From NCBI GenBank assembly GCA_023248635.1, contig JAHFED010000031.1, positions 1 to 64,000 of the forward strand: a DNA stretch of 64,000 bases, in the 5' to 3' direction. Positions 3 to 56,479 of the stretch are shown one piece after another. Below the pieces are notes generated by a model. The model searched no databases. It worked only from the letters and a program-made list of their open reading frames with translations, and was not told the origin of the DNA. This stretch comes from Myxococcales bacterium. GTDB lineage: Bacteria; Myxococcota; UBA727; VGSZ01. The position numbers and the translations under genes were made by a program. The stretch's first letter is position 1; each line of letters begins with the position of its first letter.

Positions 3-68
3 ACCACGGATGGGGAGGGCCCCGTCGGCGACTTGCTCGACGACGGGAGGGGGCGCAGCCCCCTTTGA
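3..68 (+). CDS. possible C-terminal end of a gene entering from the left (partial)
   Basis: One plus-strand frame is open from the window edge to a TGA at 66-68 and would encode about 21 residues rich in Asp, Gly and Arg. The codons have the G/C-ending bias of the neighbouring genes. Nothing identifies a family. A perfect GGGGGC/GCCCCC stem near 48-63 followed by TTT overlaps the stop and could terminate transcription. Support is weak because so little of the frame is inside the window. Confidence 0.25.
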   Translation, partial: TTDGEGPVGDLLDDGRGRSPL

Positions 69-73
69 AACAC

Positions 74-11875: not shown

Positions 11876-12095
11876 TCATCCCACGTCCGCTTGATGTTCG
11901 ACCGCGTTCCGAGATGGGAAAGACGCGGGATGAGGCGCGTGAAGCGCGCCCGCGGAACGCGGAGTTGGTGGGGGGCCCAGCGTCCGGCTTTTCCGGCGCG
12001 GGGGGGGAGGTCTGCACCAGACCTCCCAGAAGAGCATCCCCGACGGCGATGAACGAGACCGCTCCGCGGTCGACGTTCAGCGAGATCGGGGATCA
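11876..12095 (-). repeat. dispersed hairpin-rich element, family B copy 1
   Basis: This 220-bp element reads on the minus strand and starts exactly at the TGA stop of the Yip1-like gene (12093-12095). It shares most of its sequence with the copies at 42264-42482 and 48478-48632. Hairpins include GACCGC/GCGGTC, GGGAGGTCTG/CAGACCTCCC with loop gtg, and long-range pairs. No long coding frame is conserved between copies. It occupies most of the 384-bp gap between 11709 and 12092; the remaining ~165 bp holds no clear feature. Confidence 0.85.
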
Positions 12096-12863
12096 GCTGG
12101 CGCCTCCCGCCGCCGCCCCCGCGGTTCCCAGCGCCATGGAGAGGAAGTGCGCGCCGAAGACGACAACGACGGGCACCTGGGTTCGCCCGCCCGCGGCCCG
12201 CGTGAGACCCACGGCGATCCACGCGCAGCCCCAGAGCTCGAAGAAGTCGAAGCCCCGCAGAAACACCGCCAGCGCCGAGCGCGTCGCCTTGCCGGCGAAC
12301 AACCAGGCGCTGGGATTGCTCGCCACCGGATTTTGGGGATCGATGCTGTGCAGATCGAAAGCGCAGAAGGTGAGCGCGGCGACGACGTCATGCACATAGA
12401 GTGGCGCCGCTCCGACGACGGCCACAGCCACCGCCCGGGCCAGCGTCAACTGGGGGCGTGTCCCCCGCAGCAAGGCCACGCAGACGCCGGCGCACACCAA
12501 GAGCGCGAGCCAGCGTTTGGCGACGGCTCCCAGCGGCAACGCGATGGCGGTGCCGGTCACCATCAGGCCCATGACCTGGTCGCGTTTGTCGACGGGGATC
12601 TTGTCGAAGCGTCCGCTCTTGCGCAGCTCGTCGCGCAGCACCGACTCGACGCCGTCGCCGCGGTGGGCGCTCGCCAAAAACGCCGCCGGCGGCAGCACAG
12701 CGAAGAGCCCCGCCACCAAGAGGGAAAGCACCACCAGGGGTCGAGCGATGGCGGCGGCGAAGGCGGCGTCGGCGTCGACGAGGGCCAGAATGCGCGCCCG
12801 GGGGCGCTGCTCGCGCTTGCGCAAGCTGGGGAGATGAAGCTGCGGCAGCGGCTGAGCAGACAC
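12093..12863 (-). CDS. Yip1-like multi-pass membrane protein
   Basis: Predicted 256-aa inner-membrane protein with about five hydrophobic helices after a cytoplasmic N-terminus (about residues 1-40). A helix LVVLSLLVAGLFAVLPPAAF is followed by a soluble charged loop (HRGDGVESVLRDELRKSGRF) and further helices. The Pro/Gly-rich helices and the loop pattern suggest the Yip1/YIF1 superfamily. Its stop codon is the first base triplet of family B copy 1. It lies 8 bp downstream of gatC and is probably co-transcribed with it. Confidence 0.65.
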   Translation of the reverse strand: MSAQPLPQLHLPSLRKREQRPRARILALVDADAAFAAAIARPLVVLSLLVAGLFAVLPPAAFLASAHRGDGVESVLRDELRKSGRFDKIPVDKRDQVMGLMVTGTAIALPLGAVAKRWLALLVCAGVCVALLRGTRPQLTLARAVAVAVVGAAPLYVHDVVAALTFCAFDLHSIDPQNPVASNPSAWLFAGKATRSALAVFLRGFDFFELWGCAWIAVGLTRAAGGRTQVPVVVVFGAHFLSMALGTAGAAAGGAS

Positions 12864-12871
12864 GGCTCTCC

Positions 12872-13195
12872 CTACTCGACGACGCGGGGGACCTTCACCA
12901 TGCCATCGCTGACGTCGTAGCCGGCGCTTTGCTCGATGGCCCGGCGTCCCAGCACGGGTGCTGCGGCGGCAGCCGTCGTCGTCGTCGTCGTCGTCGTCGC
13001 CGGCTCGGCCAGGGGAGCGCCGTGGGTCATGGGCGGCACACCCTCGGTCGAGACGGCACGCAAAGCATCGACATGAGTCACGATGCCCGAGAGCTCGGGC
13101 ACCAGCGCGCGGACTTCGTCGTCGTCGAGGGCCAACCGCGCCAGCTTGGCCAGCTTCTTCAGCAGCTTTTCGTCGAGGGGGGCGGAGCCGGTCAT
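12872..13195 (-). CDS. gatC: glutamyl/aspartyl-tRNA amidotransferase subunit C
   Basis: Predicted 107-aa GatC, the small subunit that stabilises GatA-GatB for conversion of Glu-tRNA(Gln) or Asp-tRNA(Asn). The core DEKLLKKLAKLARLALDDDE and ELSGIVTHVDALRAVSTEGV matches GatC. The C-terminal part carries an unusual insertion of eight Thr followed by five Ala, encoded by a (GTC)8 tract on the plus strand at about 12975-12998. After it, the segment containing GMVKVPRVVE matches the GatC end. gatA and gatB are not in this window. The start at 13195 excludes a long antisense-like extension. Confidence 0.9.
   Translation of the reverse strand: MTGSAPLDEKLLKKLAKLARLALDDDEVRALVPELSGIVTHVDALRAVSTEGVPPMTHGAPLAEPATTTTTTTTAAAAAPVLGRRAIEQSAGYDVSDGMVKVPRVVE
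12975..12999. repeat. (GTC)8 trinucleotide microsatellite inside gatC
   Basis: Eight uninterrupted GTC units on the plus strand encode eight Thr (ACG) on the minus strand in the middle of gatC. Slippage by whole codons would only change the linker length, which would make it tolerated. Confidence 0.85.
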
Positions 13196-13208
13196 GGAGG
13201 CGGCGTTA

Positions 13209-42263: not shown

Positions 42264-42482
42264 TCATCCCCGATCTCGCTGAACTTCGACCGCGGAGCGG
42301 TCTCGTTCATCGCCGTCGGGGATGCTCTTCTGGGAGGTCTGCAGCAGACCTCCCCCCGCGCCGGCGGAGCCGGACGCGGGGCCCCCCACCAACTCCGCGT
42401 TCCGCGGGCGCGCTTCACGCGCATCATCCCGCGTCTTTCCCATCTCGGAACGCGGTCGAACATCAAGCGGACGCGGGATCAG
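42264..42482 (+). repeat. dispersed hairpin-rich element, family B copy 2
   Basis: This copy is 219 bp long and reads on the plus strand. It has an extra upstream perfect inverted pair: GAAGTTCAGCGAG at 42250-42262 with CTCGCTGAACTTC at 42275-42287. The element fills the 342-bp gap between the lipoprotein stop and the lpd stop. Pairs include GGGAGGTCTG/CAGACCTCCC with loop cag, CCGCGTTCCG with CGGAACGCGG at about 42402 and 42446, and ATCCCGCGTC with GACGCGGGAT. Both neighbours are convergent. The remaining ~100 bp (42144-42249) shows no other feature. Confidence 0.85.
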
Positions 42483-46004: not shown

Positions 46005-46316
46005 TCAGTGGACCGGCGTCTTTTCAGGCAGCGTGTCGACGGCGCCGTAGCGCTCCTCATAGCGCGAGATGTTGTCTTGCAAAGCACCCAGAAGTCTCTT
46101 CGCCTGCTTTGGTGAAGCAATCACCCGGGAACGCACAACCCCGCGTGGTTCATGAGGAAGAACATACACAAAATCGAAGACGAACTCCGTCTCTGTATGT
46201 GAGACAAAAGTGAGATTTGCGTAGGCGCCATTTTGCACCTCAGGCGGAATCTGGATCTGAATCTGGGGCTGCTGCGGCTTCGGGGCCCCCTCGGGCGGCT
46301 TTTGCGACGACGTCAT
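46005..46316 (-). CDS. DUF3467-family protein
   Basis: Predicted 103-aa protein. After a Pro/Gln-rich disordered start, it has GAYANLTFVSHTETEFVFDF, then SRVIASPKQAKRLLGALQDN and YEERYG, the full DUF3467 pattern. Function of the family is not established. The ATG at 46316 was chosen; a longer start would overlap the divergent kinase promoter. It converges with the fusion gene and is divergent from the kinase gene. Confidence 0.85.
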   Translation of the reverse strand: MTSSQKPPEGAPKPQQPQIQIQIPPEVQNGAYANLTFVSHTETEFVFDFVYVLPHEPRGVVRSRVIASPKQAKRLLGALQDNISRYEERYGAVDTLPEKTPVH

Positions 46317-46428
46317 GGGCGCTTCCTGTCTCTCGTGGTGCCAGGCAATACGCACGAACCCTCATGCTGCGGGCGCGGGCGACGACGCGGTTTGCGTTCG
46401 TCATCCGACGTTTGCGACCATTCGCGCC

Positions 46429-48480
46429 GTGAGTCGACACCCCACAGCCCGCGCCGGCACCAAAATGCTGGGGCGCTACCGCATCGAGCGCGAATTGGGG
46501 CGCGGCGGCATGGGCGTCGTCTACGTCGCCACCGACGAAAACACCGGCCGCCTGGTGGCGCTGAAGACCACCATGGTCGCCGGCCTGGGCTCAGGCGAGA
46601 AGACCCGCAACCAGAGGCGCGAGCGCTTCGTGCGCGAGGTGCGGGCCCTGACGCAGATGAACCACGAGAACGTGGTGCACGTGTTCGATGCCGGCGAATG
46701 CGATGATCCCGACATGGGTTGGTTGCTTTTTTATACGATGGAATACGTCGAAGGAACCACGCTGGCGGCTTTGGTGCAGGAGCAGGGCGCGCTGCAGGGA
46801 GGCGAGGCCGCCGCCGTCGTCATGCAGGTGGCTGCGGGGCTTGGTGAAGCGCACGCGCAGGGCATCATCCACCGCGATGTCAAGCCTGCAAACATCTTTT
46901 TATCGGTCGACGGACGCGCCAAAATTGGAGACTTTGGCATCGCGAAAATCGAAGGCAGCACCCAGATCACGCGGCGGGACCAACTGGTCGGAACGCCCAA
47001 CTATCTCGCGCCGGAGCAGATCACCGGCGACGTCGTCACCCCGGCCACCGATGTCTTTGCCCTGGGCGCCCTCTTCTTCGTCATCACGCAAAACCGTCCA
47101 TTGCGGCAGCAGGTCGACGCCGCCGCCTTGCTGGCCTCGGCCAACGGCAACGATCCCGTGCAGCGCGTGCACGCCGTCGACAACCTCAGCGAAGGTCTCA
47201 AGCGCGCCGTCGCCCGGGCCTTGGAGCGCGACCCCGCGCGCCGCTACCTCGACGGCACCGCCTTTGCCGACGCCCTGGTCGAGCACGCCACCCGCATTCC
47301 CCCCTTGCGTGGCAGCCCGGCGCGCGCCGATTTTCTCAGCGAAGGGACCAGCGATCGCAGCAGCGCCTTCATCGACAGCGGCCGCGGCGACGAATCCATG
47401 CCCGACGCCAACGCCTTCGACATCCAAAGCCTCCCCGACGTCGCCGGCGACGACGTCGACTCCATCGAAGCAGTCGCGGCAGCCATGCTGGGCGAGGTAG
47501 AACGCCGGGCCACAGGCACCTTCCGACAGCCACCACTGGCCCCCACCGATTCCCTGCCCGTGGCCCGCACCGAATCCACCGTGATGTTCAACCTGCGCGC
47601 GCTCGAAGAGGAGCGCAGCGCCAAGGGTCCAGCGTCGCCGTCGTCGACGGGCGCTGCTCCCCTGCCTGTGGCCCGCACCGAGTCCACCGGCTCCTTTCGC
47701 GTGCCCGAGGCAAGCCCCACCAAAGCGCGCATCGAGCTCGAGCCCCTCGCCGACGAGCGCTCCGCCAGCGCCAGCTATGACGGCCCCTCCATCACCTCCC
47801 CGGTTGTCACGCCGGCACCCGCCCGGCTCCAGCCCAAAGGCGGATGGGAAGAGGCCACGCACGAATCCGCCGCCGTTCCCGTCTCCCCCAGCGACCCCCT
47901 CACCGCCGAGCTGCCCGCGCCCCCAACGCTGAACGACACCCCGCGGGCAACGCCGAGCCGGGCTTTCGGGCCCCGGGCGGTGACCGGGGCGGCGCGGGTG
48001 CCCAGTGGGGCCCTGAGGGCCGCGGGGACGTCGTCGTCGTCGGGCCCCTCCCGAGGTGTGTTGATGGCAGCCTGCTTCGCCGCCGGCACCCTGCTGGGGT
48101 TCGGGCTCGCCTTCGCTTTGGCGCCTCCTTCGATCCCCACGGTCACTGTCCCCGAGCACAGCGGCGGTGAGGCCGCGCCGCAGCCGGGGGGACGACCGAG
48201 CTTGTGCCCCCAACGCAGCGTGACCCCCGAAGAGCAGGCCCAGGCCGCGGCCTTCCTCGACGAGGCCCGAGCGATGCGGCGAGACGGCGAGTCGTCGTCG
48301 AAGGTCCTCGATCGCCTCTCCCTCGGCATCGCCAAAGATCCGACCAACCACTTGCTCTTTTACGAGCTCGGGCGTGTGTCGAGCGCGGCCAAGGAGCAGG
48401 ACATCGCCGACGAATGCGTCTGCCGCATCGCCCGCGATTCCAAGGAATGCGCGACGGTGGAAAAAGCCCGCGGACACTGA
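46429..48480 (+). CDS. transmembrane Hanks-type Ser/Thr kinase
   Basis: Predicted 683-aa kinase. Kinase motifs: GRGGMGVVYVATD, the ATP lysine in VALKTT, HRDVKPANIF, DFGIAK, and TPNYLAPEQ. Residues about 290-560 are a low-complexity linker containing two copies of LPVARTEST (47554 and 47662), candidate phosphorylation or FHA-binding sites. One TM helix is at about 545-565 (GVLMAACFAAGTLLGFGLAF), followed by a ~110-residue extracytoplasmic domain with Cys pairs. GTG at 46429 lacks a clear ribosome site, and ATG at 46465 is an alternative. Its stop is the first codon of a family B element. Confidence 0.9.
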   Translation: MSRHPTARAGTKMLGRYRIERELGRGGMGVVYVATDENTGRLVALKTTMVAGLGSGEKTRNQRRERFVREVRALTQMNHENVVHVFDAGECDDPDMGWLLFYTMEYVEGTTLAALVQEQGALQGGEAAAVVMQVAAGLGEAHAQGIIHRDVKPANIFLSVDGRAKIGDFGIAKIEGSTQITRRDQLVGTPNYLAPEQITGDVVTPATDVFALGALFFVITQNRPLRQQVDAAALLASANGNDPVQRVHAVDNLSEGLKRAVARALERDPARRYLDGTAFADALVEHATRIPPLRGSPARADFLSEGTSDRSSAFIDSGRGDESMPDANAFDIQSLPDVAGDDVDSIEAVAAAMLGEVERRATGTFRQPPLAPTDSLPVARTESTVMFNLRALEEERSAKGPASPSSTGAAPLPVARTESTGSFRVPEASPTKARIELEPLADERSASASYDGPSITSPVVTPAPARLQPKGGWEEATHESAAVPVSPSDPLTAELPAPPTLNDTPRATPSRAFGPRAVTGAARVPSGALRAAGTSSSSGPSRGVLMAACFAAGTLLGFGLAFALAPPSIPTVTVPEHSGGEAAPQPGGRPSLCPQRSVTPEEQAQAAAFLDEARAMRRDGESSSKVLDRLSLGIAKDPTNHLLFYELGRVSSAAKEQDIADECVCRIARDSKECATVEKARGH

Positions 48481-48632
48481 TCCCCAATCTCGCTGAACTT
48501 CGACCGCGGACGGGTCTCGTTCATCTCCGTCGGGGATGCTCTTCTGGGAGGTCTGGACGCGGGGCCCCCCACCAACTCCCCGCGTCTTTCCCATCTCGGA
48601 ACGCGGTCGAACATCAAGCGGACGCGGGATGA
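48478..48632 (+). repeat. dispersed hairpin-rich element, family B copy 3 (deleted form)
   Basis: This copy is 155 bp long and starts at the TGA of the kinase gene. Compared with copies 1 and 2 it has lost two internal blocks: the right arm of the GGGAGGTCTG hairpin with the following GC-rich part, and the CGTTCCGCGGGCGCG block. The flanks of both deletions are short direct repeats. Its right end GACGCGGGAT is retained. Confidence 0.85.
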
Positions 48633-53553: not shown

Positions 53554-55011
53554 TTACTCGAGCCGGTAGTTGGGCGCTTCGCGGGTGATGATGACGTCGT
53601 GCACGTGGGCTTCACGCAGCCCTGACGACGTCACCTTCACGAAGTTGGCCTTGGTGCGCAGCTCGGGGAGGTTCTTTGCCCCCAGGTAGCCCATGCCCGA
53701 GCGCACCCCGCCGGTGAGCTGGTAGAGGTTCGCCGACATCGACCCCCGTGCGGGCACCCGACCTTCGATGCCCTCGGGCACGAGCTTGTTGGCGTCTTTG
53801 ACGTCGGACTGGCCGTAGCGGTCCTTGCTGCCCTGCTCCATGGCGCTCATGGAGCCCATGCCCCGGTACACCTTGAAGGTGCGGCCTTGAAACAAGACGA
53901 GCTCACCCGGGCTCTCATCGGTGCCGGCAAAGAGGGACCCGATCATGACGGCGTCAGCACCCGCTGCCAGGGCTTTGACGCAATCGCCGGAGTACTTCAC
54001 GCCGCCGTCGGCAATGGTGGTGGCACCGCGGGCCCGGGCCGCCGTCGACACGTCCATCACCGCGGTGACCTGGGGAACGCCGACGCCGGCGACGATGCGG
54101 GTGGTGCAGATGGAGCCCGGACCAATGCCGGCCTTCACACAGTCGGCACCAGCGTCGATGAGCGCGTTGGCGGCGTCGGCGGTCGCGATGTTGCCACCGA
54201 CCAAGCAGACATCCTTGAACCAGCGGCGCAGCGCGGCGACGGCGTCGATGACCCCCTTGCTGTGCCCATGGGCGGTGTCGACCACGAGCACATCGACGCC
54301 GGCGTCGACGAGGGCGTGAGCGCGCACCTCGAGATCGCGTCCCGGACCGACGGCGGCAGCACACAGCAGGCGACCGCGGGAGTCGCGGGCGGCGTTGGGA
54401 AAGTCCTTTGCCTTGAGCAGATCTTTGACGGTGATGAGCCCGAGCAGACGGCGATCGTCGTCGACAACCAGCAATTTCTCGACACGCCGTTGCACCATCA
54501 GCGCCATGGCATCGTCGCGACCGACGCCTTCGCCAGCGCTCACGAGGTTGCGGGTCATGACTTCGCCGATGGGGGTCGAAGGCACCGCCGCCCGCAGATC
54601 GCGCTTGGTCAAGATGCCCTGCACGCGCCCAGCATCGTCGACGACGGGAAAGCCGGAGACGCCGAAGGCCGCCATCTTGTCGAAGGCTTCTTTGGCGAGG
54701 GCGTTGATGTTGAGGGTGACCGGATTGCGGACGACGCCGGCCTCATACTTTTTGACCTTGGCCACCATGGCCGCTTGGGCGTCGGGGGTGAGGTTCTTGT
54801 GCACGACGCCGACGCCGCCGCTCTGGGCCATGGCGATGGCGGTGGCCGACTCCGTGACGGTGTCCATCGCCGCCGACAAGAAGGGGATCGACAAAGACAC
54901 ACCGCGGCCGAGGTGGGTGCGCGTGTCGACCTCGGACGGCAGCACGTCGCTCTCAGCGGGGACCAGGGAGACGTCGTCGAAGGTCAGGGCTTCGCGGATG
55001 GTGGCGGTCAT
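53554..55011 (-). CDS. guaB: inosine-5-monophosphate dehydrogenase
   Basis: Predicted 485-aa GuaB, which oxidises IMP to XMP with NAD in guanine synthesis. A CBS pair interrupts the barrel at about 95-205 (for example GEVMTRNLVSAGEGVGRDDA). The catalytic loop is GIGPGSICTTRIVAGVG with Cys near residue 302, and the flap region is GMGSMSAMEQGSKDRY. ATG at 55011 is preceded by AAAGGA 9 nt upstream. No guaA follows in this window. Confidence 0.95.
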   Translation of the reverse strand: MTATIREALTFDDVSLVPAESDVLPSEVDTRTHLGRGVSLSIPFLSAAMDTVTESATAIAMAQSGGVGVVHKNLTPDAQAAMVAKVKKYEAGVVRNPVTLNINALAKEAFDKMAAFGVSGFPVVDDAGRVQGILTKRDLRAAVPSTPIGEVMTRNLVSAGEGVGRDDAMALMVQRRVEKLLVVDDDRRLLGLITVKDLLKAKDFPNAARDSRGRLLCAAAVGPGRDLEVRAHALVDAGVDVLVVDTAHGHSKGVIDAVAALRRWFKDVCLVGGNIATADAANALIDAGADCVKAGIGPGSICTTRIVAGVGVPQVTAVMDVSTAARARGATTIADGGVKYSGDCVKALAAGADAVMIGSLFAGTDESPGELVLFQGRTFKVYRGMGSMSAMEQGSKDRYGQSDVKDANKLVPEGIEGRVPARGSMSANLYQLTGGVRSGMGYLGAKNLPELRTKANFVKVTSSGLREAHVHDVIITREAPNYRLE

Positions 55012-55207
55012 CGGCTTGGGTCCTTTGCTGAAGCTGCGCGTGCTGCGCTGAACAAACTGCGGCCAACAAAGCGCGCCCGAAGGGCGCGATCCGAGAGCCC
55101 ATCTCACAGCCCCTCCCCTCGCGATGCTCACCGACGTCGCCGATGCGAAGGGCCGGTTCTTCGCGCCCAGCGCTCAATCTGAGCTCCGGGGTCATGAGAT
55201 GCGCCGT

Positions 55208-55358
55208 CTAGCAGGCTGCTGAAAAACGAAGTCTTGAGGCAGACGCGTCCTTGGGAGGGAGGCTCGTCGAGGCTTCGCCTCGACGAGGGAGGGTCTGGGA
55301 CAGACCCTCCGGAAGTACAGCAGGGTGCGAAAAACGGAGTTTTTCCGCACGCTGCTAG
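55208..55358. mobile_element. 151-bp MITE-like element with inverted ends
   Basis: The left end CTAGCAGGCTGCTGAAAAAC (55208-55227) pairs with the inverted right end CTAGCAGCGTGCGGAAAAAC. Both termini lie in CTAG, which may be a target duplication. Inside are hairpins with CTCGTCGAGG/CCTCGACGAG and GAGGGTCTG/CAGACCCTC arms. No reading frame of useful length is inside. Its right CTAG at 55355 supplies the TAG stop of the neighbouring minus-strand gene. It occupies part of the 343-bp gap 55012-55354. The remaining ~195 bp is the guaB upstream region with no other clear feature. Confidence 0.65.
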
Positions 55359-56479
55359 CCTTTCTTGCCCTTTTTCTTGGGCTCTTCCTTGGGAGGCTCG
55401 GGAGCAACGATCACCGGTGGCGGCGGAGGAGGCAGCGCCAGCAGGTCGCCCATCGCAGCCGACAACAGCGCCGTCGTCGTTGCGTAAGCGCTCAGGCGCG
55501 GGGCAATGAGCGCGAGGGCGGCCTGGGCTTCGGGGTCTTTGTCGACGGGGCCACAGGAGAGCGCGCGCTTGCGGATCTCGCGACTGACGCTGCAGGCGAG
55601 CAGGGTGCGGGCATAGCCTTTGTCGTCGACGACGGCCTTTTGCACCGGTTCAGCGAGCTTCGCGAAACCCTCGATCAACGTGCCCGCAGCCACGACCTTG
55701 GCCGTCTCACCAGCCACCAAAGTCTTGGCGTAGGCCAGCACCGCAGCGTCGATGATGGCCTCGTCGTCGGCGGGCCCGCGCGAAGGCCCGCTGATGATGC
55801 CGGCGGTGCCGCCGGCGGCATCGGGCACCTGGAGCACGAACAGACTGCCAGCGGCGTCGAGGTCGTTGAGCACCACGGCCACCCGACCAGACACCGTGGC
55901 AGCGTCGTCGAGGAGGGCGTCGGAGGTGTCTCCCAGGCGCACCAGCTTGGTGGTGGCTTTGACGGCGGCGTCGAGGCCGGGGAGCAGGCGTTTTTGCGTG
56001 GCCCGGGCTTCTTCGTTGGCGTTGCGCAGCAGGGCGGAGCCGCCCTCTTCATTGAACCATTCGCGGATGGGGGCCGCGAGGGCTTTGGCCAAGGGCGACG
56101 TCGCTGCCTTGTCGTCGAAGCGGGGGGCGGGGCCGAGCTCCAAGACGGCGGCGGCGTACTCTTGCGCCGATACTGGGAATTTCTCGATCAGCTTGATCAG
56201 CTCGGGCGACGTCGACCGGCCGATGTTCTGGCGGAGCTTCTCGCGGGTGGGCGAGAACTTGGGCCGTTGCAGCGGCAGGGGTCCAAGAATGGATTCGACG
56301 TCGTAGCCGGCGCCGTTCAAGATCGCATAGAGGGCAAAGAGCCGGGGCTCGACGCCGAGCTCGACGCCGTCTTCGGTGAAGACGCTGGCGCTCGACCATT
56401 GGGCGTGGGCCGGCACCGCGGGAACGACGGCGGCCAGGATCAAGCAGACGTAGGCAAAGGGACGCAGGGGCGGACGCAT
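55355..56479 (-). CDS. exported hypothetical protein, unrecognised
   Basis: Predicted 374-aa secreted protein with signal ending near AVPAHAQW (about 20-28). The mature body is helical and Ala-rich, with repeated short motifs and a Pro/Lys tail (PPPPPPVIVAPEPPKEEPKKKGKKG). The stop codon TAG is the outer end of the MITE-like element. Cys are few (LLACSVSREI, ALSCGP). No family recognised. Confidence 0.6.
   Translation of the reverse strand: MRPPLRPFAYVCLILAAVVPAVPAHAQWSSASVFTEDGVELGVEPRLFALYAILNGAGYDVESILGPLPLQRPKFSPTREKLRQNIGRSTSPELIKLIEKFPVSAQEYAAAVLELGPAPRFDDKAATSPLAKALAAPIREWFNEEGGSALLRNANEEARATQKRLLPGLDAAVKATTKLVRLGDTSDALLDDAATVSGRVAVVLNDLDAAGSLFVLQVPDAAGGTAGIISGPSRGPADDEAIIDAAVLAYAKTLVAGETAKVVAAGTLIEGFAKLAEPVQKAVVDDKGYARTLLACSVSREIRKRALSCGPVDKDPEAQAALALIAPRLSAYATTTALLSAAMGDLLALPPPPPPVIVAPEPPKEEPKKKGKKG

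Follow-up and report, generated by a model that had tools for sequence, protein, structure and literature searches.

The short element at positions 55208–55358 of the window (the whole stretch of 64,000 nucleotides that was analysed) is best read as one of a number of IS5-type MITEs which, to judge from the sequence comparisons described below, probably carry an RNA module similar to a 3′-UTR and settle harmlessly on the stop codons of genes.

Two CTAG words at 55208–55211 and 55355–55358 bracket a body of 143 bp (55212–55354); the CTAG flanks had been described in a previous sequence-only reading of this region. That reading had seen here a MITE-like insertion with ends like those of insertion sequences and without a transposase, and our analysis supports this: the element is short (143 bp), multicopy and devoid of a transposase gene, and it possesses terminal inverted repeats as well as a target-site duplication, as is characteristic of MITEs. 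The inverted ends, given previously as about 20 bp long, are real but measure closer to 16 bp, two positions of the family consensus being mismatched (CAGGCTGCTGAAAAAC versus CAGGGTGCGGAAAAAC, 14 of 16 bases equal), and in the window the right end has an additional private change (GCAGCG in place of GCAGGG). Because a repeat finder with default settings found nothing between 55100 and 55500, these imperfect ends were found through comparison of the family members. Similarly, the CTAG words do flank the element but represent the duplicated target and thus lie outside the element proper. On either strand the element folds into a far more stable structure than shuffled versions of it (z about −8). 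The features of the element and of its surroundings are compiled in Table 1.

Table 1. Coordinates of the element at 55208–55358, of the neighbouring genes and of the family-3b MITEs in the window
Feature	Position	Strand	Basis or remark
Left copy of the 4-bp target-site duplication, CTAG	55208–55211		Both 4-bp flanks agree in 24 of 33 complete copies
MITE body of 143 bp, with no room for a transposase gene	55212–55354	+	Sequence and family comparison
Left terminal inverted repeat CAGGCTGCTGAAAAAC	55212–55227	+	Sequence, end-pattern counts, consensus
Structured core, two hairpins	55250–55316	−	Covariance model, 73.3 bits; same sense as the 374-aa gene
Core hairpin HP1, covarying stem	55263–55287	−	Folding and alignment
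Core hairpin HP2, GGAGGGTCTG..CAGACCCTCC	55288–55310	−	Folding and alignment
Tip hairpin, right end plus inverted copy of that end	55319–55356		Folding
Right terminal inverted repeat, consensus CAGGGTGCGGAAAAAC, one private change here	55339–55354	−	Consensus
Right copy of the target-site duplication, CTAG	55355–55358		Contains the TAG stop of the 374-aa gene (55357–55355, minus strand)
374-aa protein	55355–56479	−	No Pfam match; possible N-terminal signal peptide (by eye); full-length, judged against orthologues
guaB (IMP dehydrogenase), next gene downstream of the element	53554–55011	−	Start codon inferred by reading against relatives
Family-3b MITE directly behind the TGA stop of open frame 46261–48480	48481–48629	+	TGA repeated at 48630–48632
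Family-3b MITE directly behind the TGA stop of minus-strand open frame 12093–13205	11879–12092	−	Core at 11964–12033; duplication TGA
Family-3b MITE, classed intergenic	42267–42478	+	Core at 42326–42393; duplication TCA

We searched the genome to which the window belongs, a draft of 6.53 Mb in 135 contigs, for further copies. At least 40 matches were obtained, those other than the query itself having an identity of 95–99%; since only 40 of the 89 candidates were scored, the true number is probably higher. The fetched regions contained five additional copies or parts, so that the family amounts to about 45 copies or parts, among which some parts at contig ends may be two halves of one copy. Nine contigs (L088, L089 and L091–L097) begin or end inside a copy of the MITE, so that the assembly is broken by the element and the copy number is uncertain. 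For the end pattern GCAGNNTGCNGAAAAAC the genome has 55 occurrences, 25 of them forward and 30 reverse, and for the reversed control pattern none, which shows that the end pattern does not occur by chance. From 86 pattern rows 33 complete copies were derived. The remaining rows had hit the mirror-image half of the right tip, or they belonged to copies that are interrupted by a contig end or altered at one end; for six loci (L006, L008, L015, L027, L029, L030) wider regions of the same places (L159–L162) were used instead. Mean pairwise identity of the complete copies is 97%, and from this near-identity we infer that the family has transposed.

Identical 4-mers flank 24 of the 33 complete copies (CTAG on both sides in 11, TTAG in 10 and CTAA in three cases), the flanks of the remaining nine being unequal. 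As both flanks vary together in three versions, they are to be regarded as a 4-bp target-site duplication of the type YTAR. In two shorter copies of 82 bp (61 bp less) much of the core is deleted and both ends are kept. Outside its own genome the element as DNA matches four of the 39 genomes searched (G001, G002, G003, G032), and there with inner parts only. At the site 55208–55358 itself no empty allele was seen, the orthologous intergenic regions being too diverged for an alignment by eye.

The location of the copies relative to genes was determined with genes called by a coding score of our own, for which the window served as training set. In 13 of the 33 complete copies the duplication falls exactly on the stop codon of a gene, three copies lie inside genes and 17 are intergenic. 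For comparison, the 186 YTAR sites in the window and in 400 kb of contig C9 are distributed as 23 at stops, 79 inside genes and 84 intergenic. Compared with all YTAR sites the odds of a stop position are raised 4.6-fold (13/33 versus 23/186, p = 0.0005), and compared with the intergenic YTAR sites only the excess is 2.8-fold (p = 0.02). YTAR words are rare here, and CTAG itself is a very rare word in these 400 kb (L163–L182) with 69 occurrences versus 1248 expected from the base composition and 273 from a Markov estimate, i.e., it is about 18 times and about 4 times rarer than expected, respectively.

A second group of MITEs, to which the three family-3b elements of the window belong, starts with TCCCCGATCTCG, finishes with TGGACTTGGGA or GCGGACGCGGGA and is flanked by 3-bp duplications. 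Duplications of the type TNA are known for some groups of the IS5 family. The 44 rows of this group include 12 one-ended ones, and among the 32 two-ended copies three with unequal flanks were left unclassified; the other 29 carry duplications of TGA (17), TCA (9), TTA (2) or TAA (1). Twelve of these 29 are located on stops, two inside genes and 15 in intergenic regions, one of the stop cases (L018) resting on 60 codons at the edge of the locus. When only the TGA and TCA copies are considered, 12 are at stops, one is inside a gene and 13 are intergenic versus 282, 9002 and 1093 background sites, corresponding to a 3.6-fold excess of stops over intergenic positions (p = 0.002). The contiguous 400-kb sample of C9 alone gives a weaker result, with one of eight second-group copies on a stop; most of the other second-group copies were fetched by the hairpin pattern or a match to the core model and not by gene context. 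The core of the member at 48481–48629 is shortened and was missed by the core model. To sum up both groups, much of the stop-codon excess reflects the loss of insertions inside genes, and over intergenic positions alone the excess is about threefold.

Both MITE groups contain the same core, which is composed of HP2 (GGAGGGTCTG..CAGACCCTCC), a further stem (HP1), in which an A is often bulged, and a tail rich in C. The core also occurs in at least two further families of the same genome and in copies in relatives. We aligned 16 core sequences, hand-picked from 25 candidates (the nine omitted ones were near-duplicates or irregular), and in this alignment pairing is kept in 93.8% of the cells. 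In HP1 changes on both sides are present in nine of the 11 pairs, and the covariation score exceeds that of all 500 shuffles, which ignore relatedness. The pairing of HP2 was part of the patterns used for selection; the pairing of HP1 was not, though letters of the HP1 loop were contained in one search pattern. A covariance model of the core matches in 18 of 193 genomes of the phylum, of which five had contributed sequences to the model, most of the matches outside these five being weak.

At stop-codon insertions in the window's genome the core is biased towards the sense orientation relative to the gene: with both groups taken together and L010, which has genes on both sides, excluded, 19 cores at stop insertions are in sense and five in antisense orientation (p = 0.007). 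For the window's own family alone the counts are nine and three, which is not significant (p = 0.15), and the intergenic copies of the second group display no orientation bias (6 TGA, 7 TCA). In relatives the core is likewise encountered behind stop codons to a varying extent. In G003 a stop codon lies no more than 4 bases from the start of eight of the 11 tested cores (out of 14 matches). All three cores of G005, a genome that gave no sequence to the model, start directly after a CTAG stop. A position 0–4 bases behind a stop was found for one of the 12 tested cores in G032 (out of 45 matches) and for two of 15 cores in the family f18 genomes.

With respect to the function of the core, a search of five loci against Rfam gave no counterpart: its three matches stayed under the gathering score, and they lay outside both the element and the core. 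Two terminator-like sites with a T-run are present in 54900–55600 (0.9 expected), neither of them in the element. The core is therefore not a textbook intrinsic terminator, and an intrinsic (Rho-independent) terminator, i.e., a hairpin with a U-tract, was discarded as an interpretation of the element. As no T-run follows the core, a role in processing or stability is as likely as one in termination.

Several related structures were observed in addition. A further MITE family of 155–160 bp with the ends CAGGGTGAGGAAAAC / CAGGCTGCGGAAAAAC and the same core is present in the window's genome (L080 3708–3863, L081 3213–3372, L083 2177–2331), and in L198 (around 1435–1600), L299 and L301 another family has CAGGGTGCTGAAAAAG-type ends around the core, in L198 with apparent CTAT flanks as judged by eye. 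In genome G002 (L108, L112, L120, L123, L129, L137) there are elements of 47–138 bp which are alike in build and composed of other letters, most of them with two tip hairpins and CAGG.TGC.GAAAAA-like ends. In G032 (L068) the core is arranged in head-to-tail tandem copies of 78 bp each. Finally, at the edge of the window (10–70, minus strand) a weak core match of 24 bits lies behind a long hairpin with arms that contain AGTCCCTGG and CCAGGGACT, which is possibly another element family.

It is quite conceivable, though on balance not probable, that the elements are purely selfish MITEs. Stop codons would then be enriched only because insertions are lost from genes and because the YTAR and TGA words in noncoding DNA often are stops, and the hairpins would be by-products of the inverted ends. 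This explanation agrees with the few copies inside genes (3/33 and 2/29), with the rarity of CTAG, with the single second-group copy on a stop (of eight) in the contiguous C9 sample and with the foldback structure that is common in MITEs (PMC2229807). The excess of stops over intergenic sites, however, persists when both groups are pooled (odds ratio 3.2, p = 0.0001), and the sense bias of the core, the covariation of HP1 between families with different ends and the cores behind stop codons in G003 and G005 argue against by-products of selfish transposition.

We consider it unlikely that mobility resides in the two-hairpin core alone, or that this core is a site used by another system, with the IS5-like ends being secondary. 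Cores without such ends upstream do exist in G003, in G005 and among most of the tested G032 copies, and the tandem repeats in G032 would fit as well. In the window's genome, however, the duplicated flanks are found at the ends of the whole element and not at those of the core, and both 82-bp copies have retained their ends in spite of the deletion of much of the core.

The gene next to the right end codes for a protein of an unnamed family, and a guaB-like frame follows it in G002, G003, G005 and G006 (read from the DNA, unscored). It had been proposed from the sequence alone that the element supplies the stop codon of this gene and that the protein may be shortened or altered at its C-terminus. 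The TAG at 55357–55355, inside the right-hand CTAG, is indeed the stop of the gene, but it belongs to the duplicated target and not to the element. Being within the duplicated CTAG, this stop should pre-date the insertion. Matches to the protein were obtained in 11 of the 39 genomes searched, the window's own included, with identities of 65% for the G002 and 48% for the G003 orthologue. The orthologues of G002, G003 and G005 have a Pro-rich part followed by a Lys/Gly- or Lys/Ala-rich tail and end at nearly the same place; they stop with TGA, and no element is present in the next 300 bases. The G006 relative ends earlier, lacks this tail and gives no hint of a lost extension. A scan of the genome contigs for the protein detected one relative, L156, with the same C-terminus as in G002. 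An altered C-terminus is consequently not supported, given the similar K/G-rich tails of orthologues without the element and the TAG in the duplicated target, and the longer C-terminus which had been suggested as a check is not seen in the orthologues, three of which end at about the same place and that of G006 earlier. Two observations had been named beforehand as speaking against the proposal; the C-termini of orthologues without the element do fall at about this residue, but elements of the same kind, which should then have been missing elsewhere, are abundant. That the element inserted within the reading frame and brought a new stop which truncated the gene is hardly credible and was rejected on the evidence of the orthologue C-termini: the stop is at the edge of the element, but it lies in the duplicated target, the element-free orthologues of G002, G003 and G005 have their C-termini in this region too and 12 other complete copies likewise sit on a stop. 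Thus the protein seems unchanged, and its message probably gains a new folded tail.

The element has no transposase of its own and would depend on an enzyme supplied in trans. A full element with related ends, which the sequence-only reading had recommended to look for, exists in genome G020 of the same phylum (L138), and not in the window's genome. It is an IS of 1270 bp with CTAG on both sides, both ends read CAGGTTGTTGAAAAA, in which 13 of 15 bases are as in the left end of the MITE (counted by eye), and its transposase of 367 aa reaches 260 bits with the IS5-family model NF033581, the cut-off of which is 140. Our first guess, ends of the IS1182 type, was abandoned, as the G020 partner scores above the cut-off of the IS5 model and below that of IS1182. 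In the 135 contigs of the window's draft genome no IS5-family transposase was found, and the G020 transposase gave only two chance-level matches there (best E = 0.09). PF01609 has two matches in this genome, L099 and L100; L099 was dismissed as an IS5-family helper because it is scored as IS4/Tn5 type, and L100 is nearly identical to L099 by eye. Since the assembly is a draft, the absence of an autonomous partner from the same genome is weak evidence, and the helper is presumably missing, lost or unassembled.

It is also hard to believe that the element is REP/BIME-like and owes its mobility, in single-stranded form, to a Y1 transposase (RAYT or IS200/IS605) recognising hairpins. The strong hairpins of both strands (z about −8) would be in line with such a transfer, and so would the presence of a tetranucleotide where the element inserted, but duplicated flanks which co-vary in three versions fit a staggered cut, which IS200/IS605 enzymes are not known to make. 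Mobilisation by Y1/RAYT was also rejected because Y1_Tnp is not matched in the window's genome, whereas five of 14 control genomes gave a match. IS5 is reported to duplicate Py-T-A-Pu, most often CTAG (PMC5493358), and the flanks CTAG, TTAG and CTAA of our family follow this rule. Together with the G020 element and the duplication of MITEPsy1 (see below), the duplication rule makes an IS5-type enzyme acting in trans the best inference.

On these grounds we propose for IS5-type MITEs with a putative 3′-UTR-like module the following course of events. An IS5-family transposase would act in trans and cut the CTAG that consists of the stop TAG and the base before it, with which the final codon ends; the MITE would insert and the filling of the gap would duplicate CTAG, so that the stop codon survives and the protein remains untouched. 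The message of the neighbouring gene would then end with the tip hairpin, HP2 and HP1. Insertions at stops may survive because the target word holds the stop codon that is restored. The two-hairpin core is a candidate RNA 3′-UTR module for message end formation, processing or stability, and such a role would account for the sense orientation of the core as well as for the copies that stand behind stop codons in relatives. A more far-reaching and rather doubtful possibility is a dispersible 3′-UTR system in which one conserved RNA module was taken up by several IS5-type elements with different ends, insertion at stop words (YTAR, TNA) restores the stop and equips the gene with a prefabricated 3′ end in the correct orientation, and a working module leads to the retention of copies in this position.

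MITEs, the YTAR duplication and repeats at gene ends are already known. We noticed no report, within the open-licence literature, of target duplications which restore stop codons or of one covarying core across elements with different ends. The element illustrates a harmless way into the end of a gene, as the target word contains the stop and the duplication rebuilds it. If the core acts in RNA, transposition would give bacterial genes new 3′ ends, and if this is true, the spread of MITEs would be linked to message termination and stability in high-GC genomes.

Several known systems come close to the element. MITEPsy1 of Pseudomonas syringae is, like our element, small and has inverted ends, a CTAG or YTAA duplication and a link to the IS5 family; it is about 100 nt long with 18-nt inverted ends containing the letters CTGAAAAA, and a derivation from ISPsy2 (IS5 family) was suggested (PMC3189936). 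It differs in that six copies are present in its strain, and the accessible text mentions neither a covarying core nor a stop-codon bias (PMC3189936). The IS5 family shares with our element the YTAR duplication with CTAG as the commonest form (PMC5493358), and the ends of the G020 element are similar; the window's element differs by lacking a transposase, none having been found in its genome. Correia/NEMIS, ERIC and RUP are also small non-autonomous repeats that fold in RNA, and some of them alter the messages of neighbouring genes, but most have 5′-TA-3′ at their termini and the portion at hand describes no YTAR or TNA duplication (PMC2229807). From Streptococcus pneumoniae two repeats at gene ends are reported: SPRITE, a terminator-like repeat, is enriched at gene 3′ ends, and BOX encodes the stop at 36 gene ends with no strong evidence of truncation (PMC3049150). 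In BOX the repeat itself encodes the stop (PMC3049150), whereas the stop at our element comes from the duplicated target, and a single core is common to several element families that differ in their ends.
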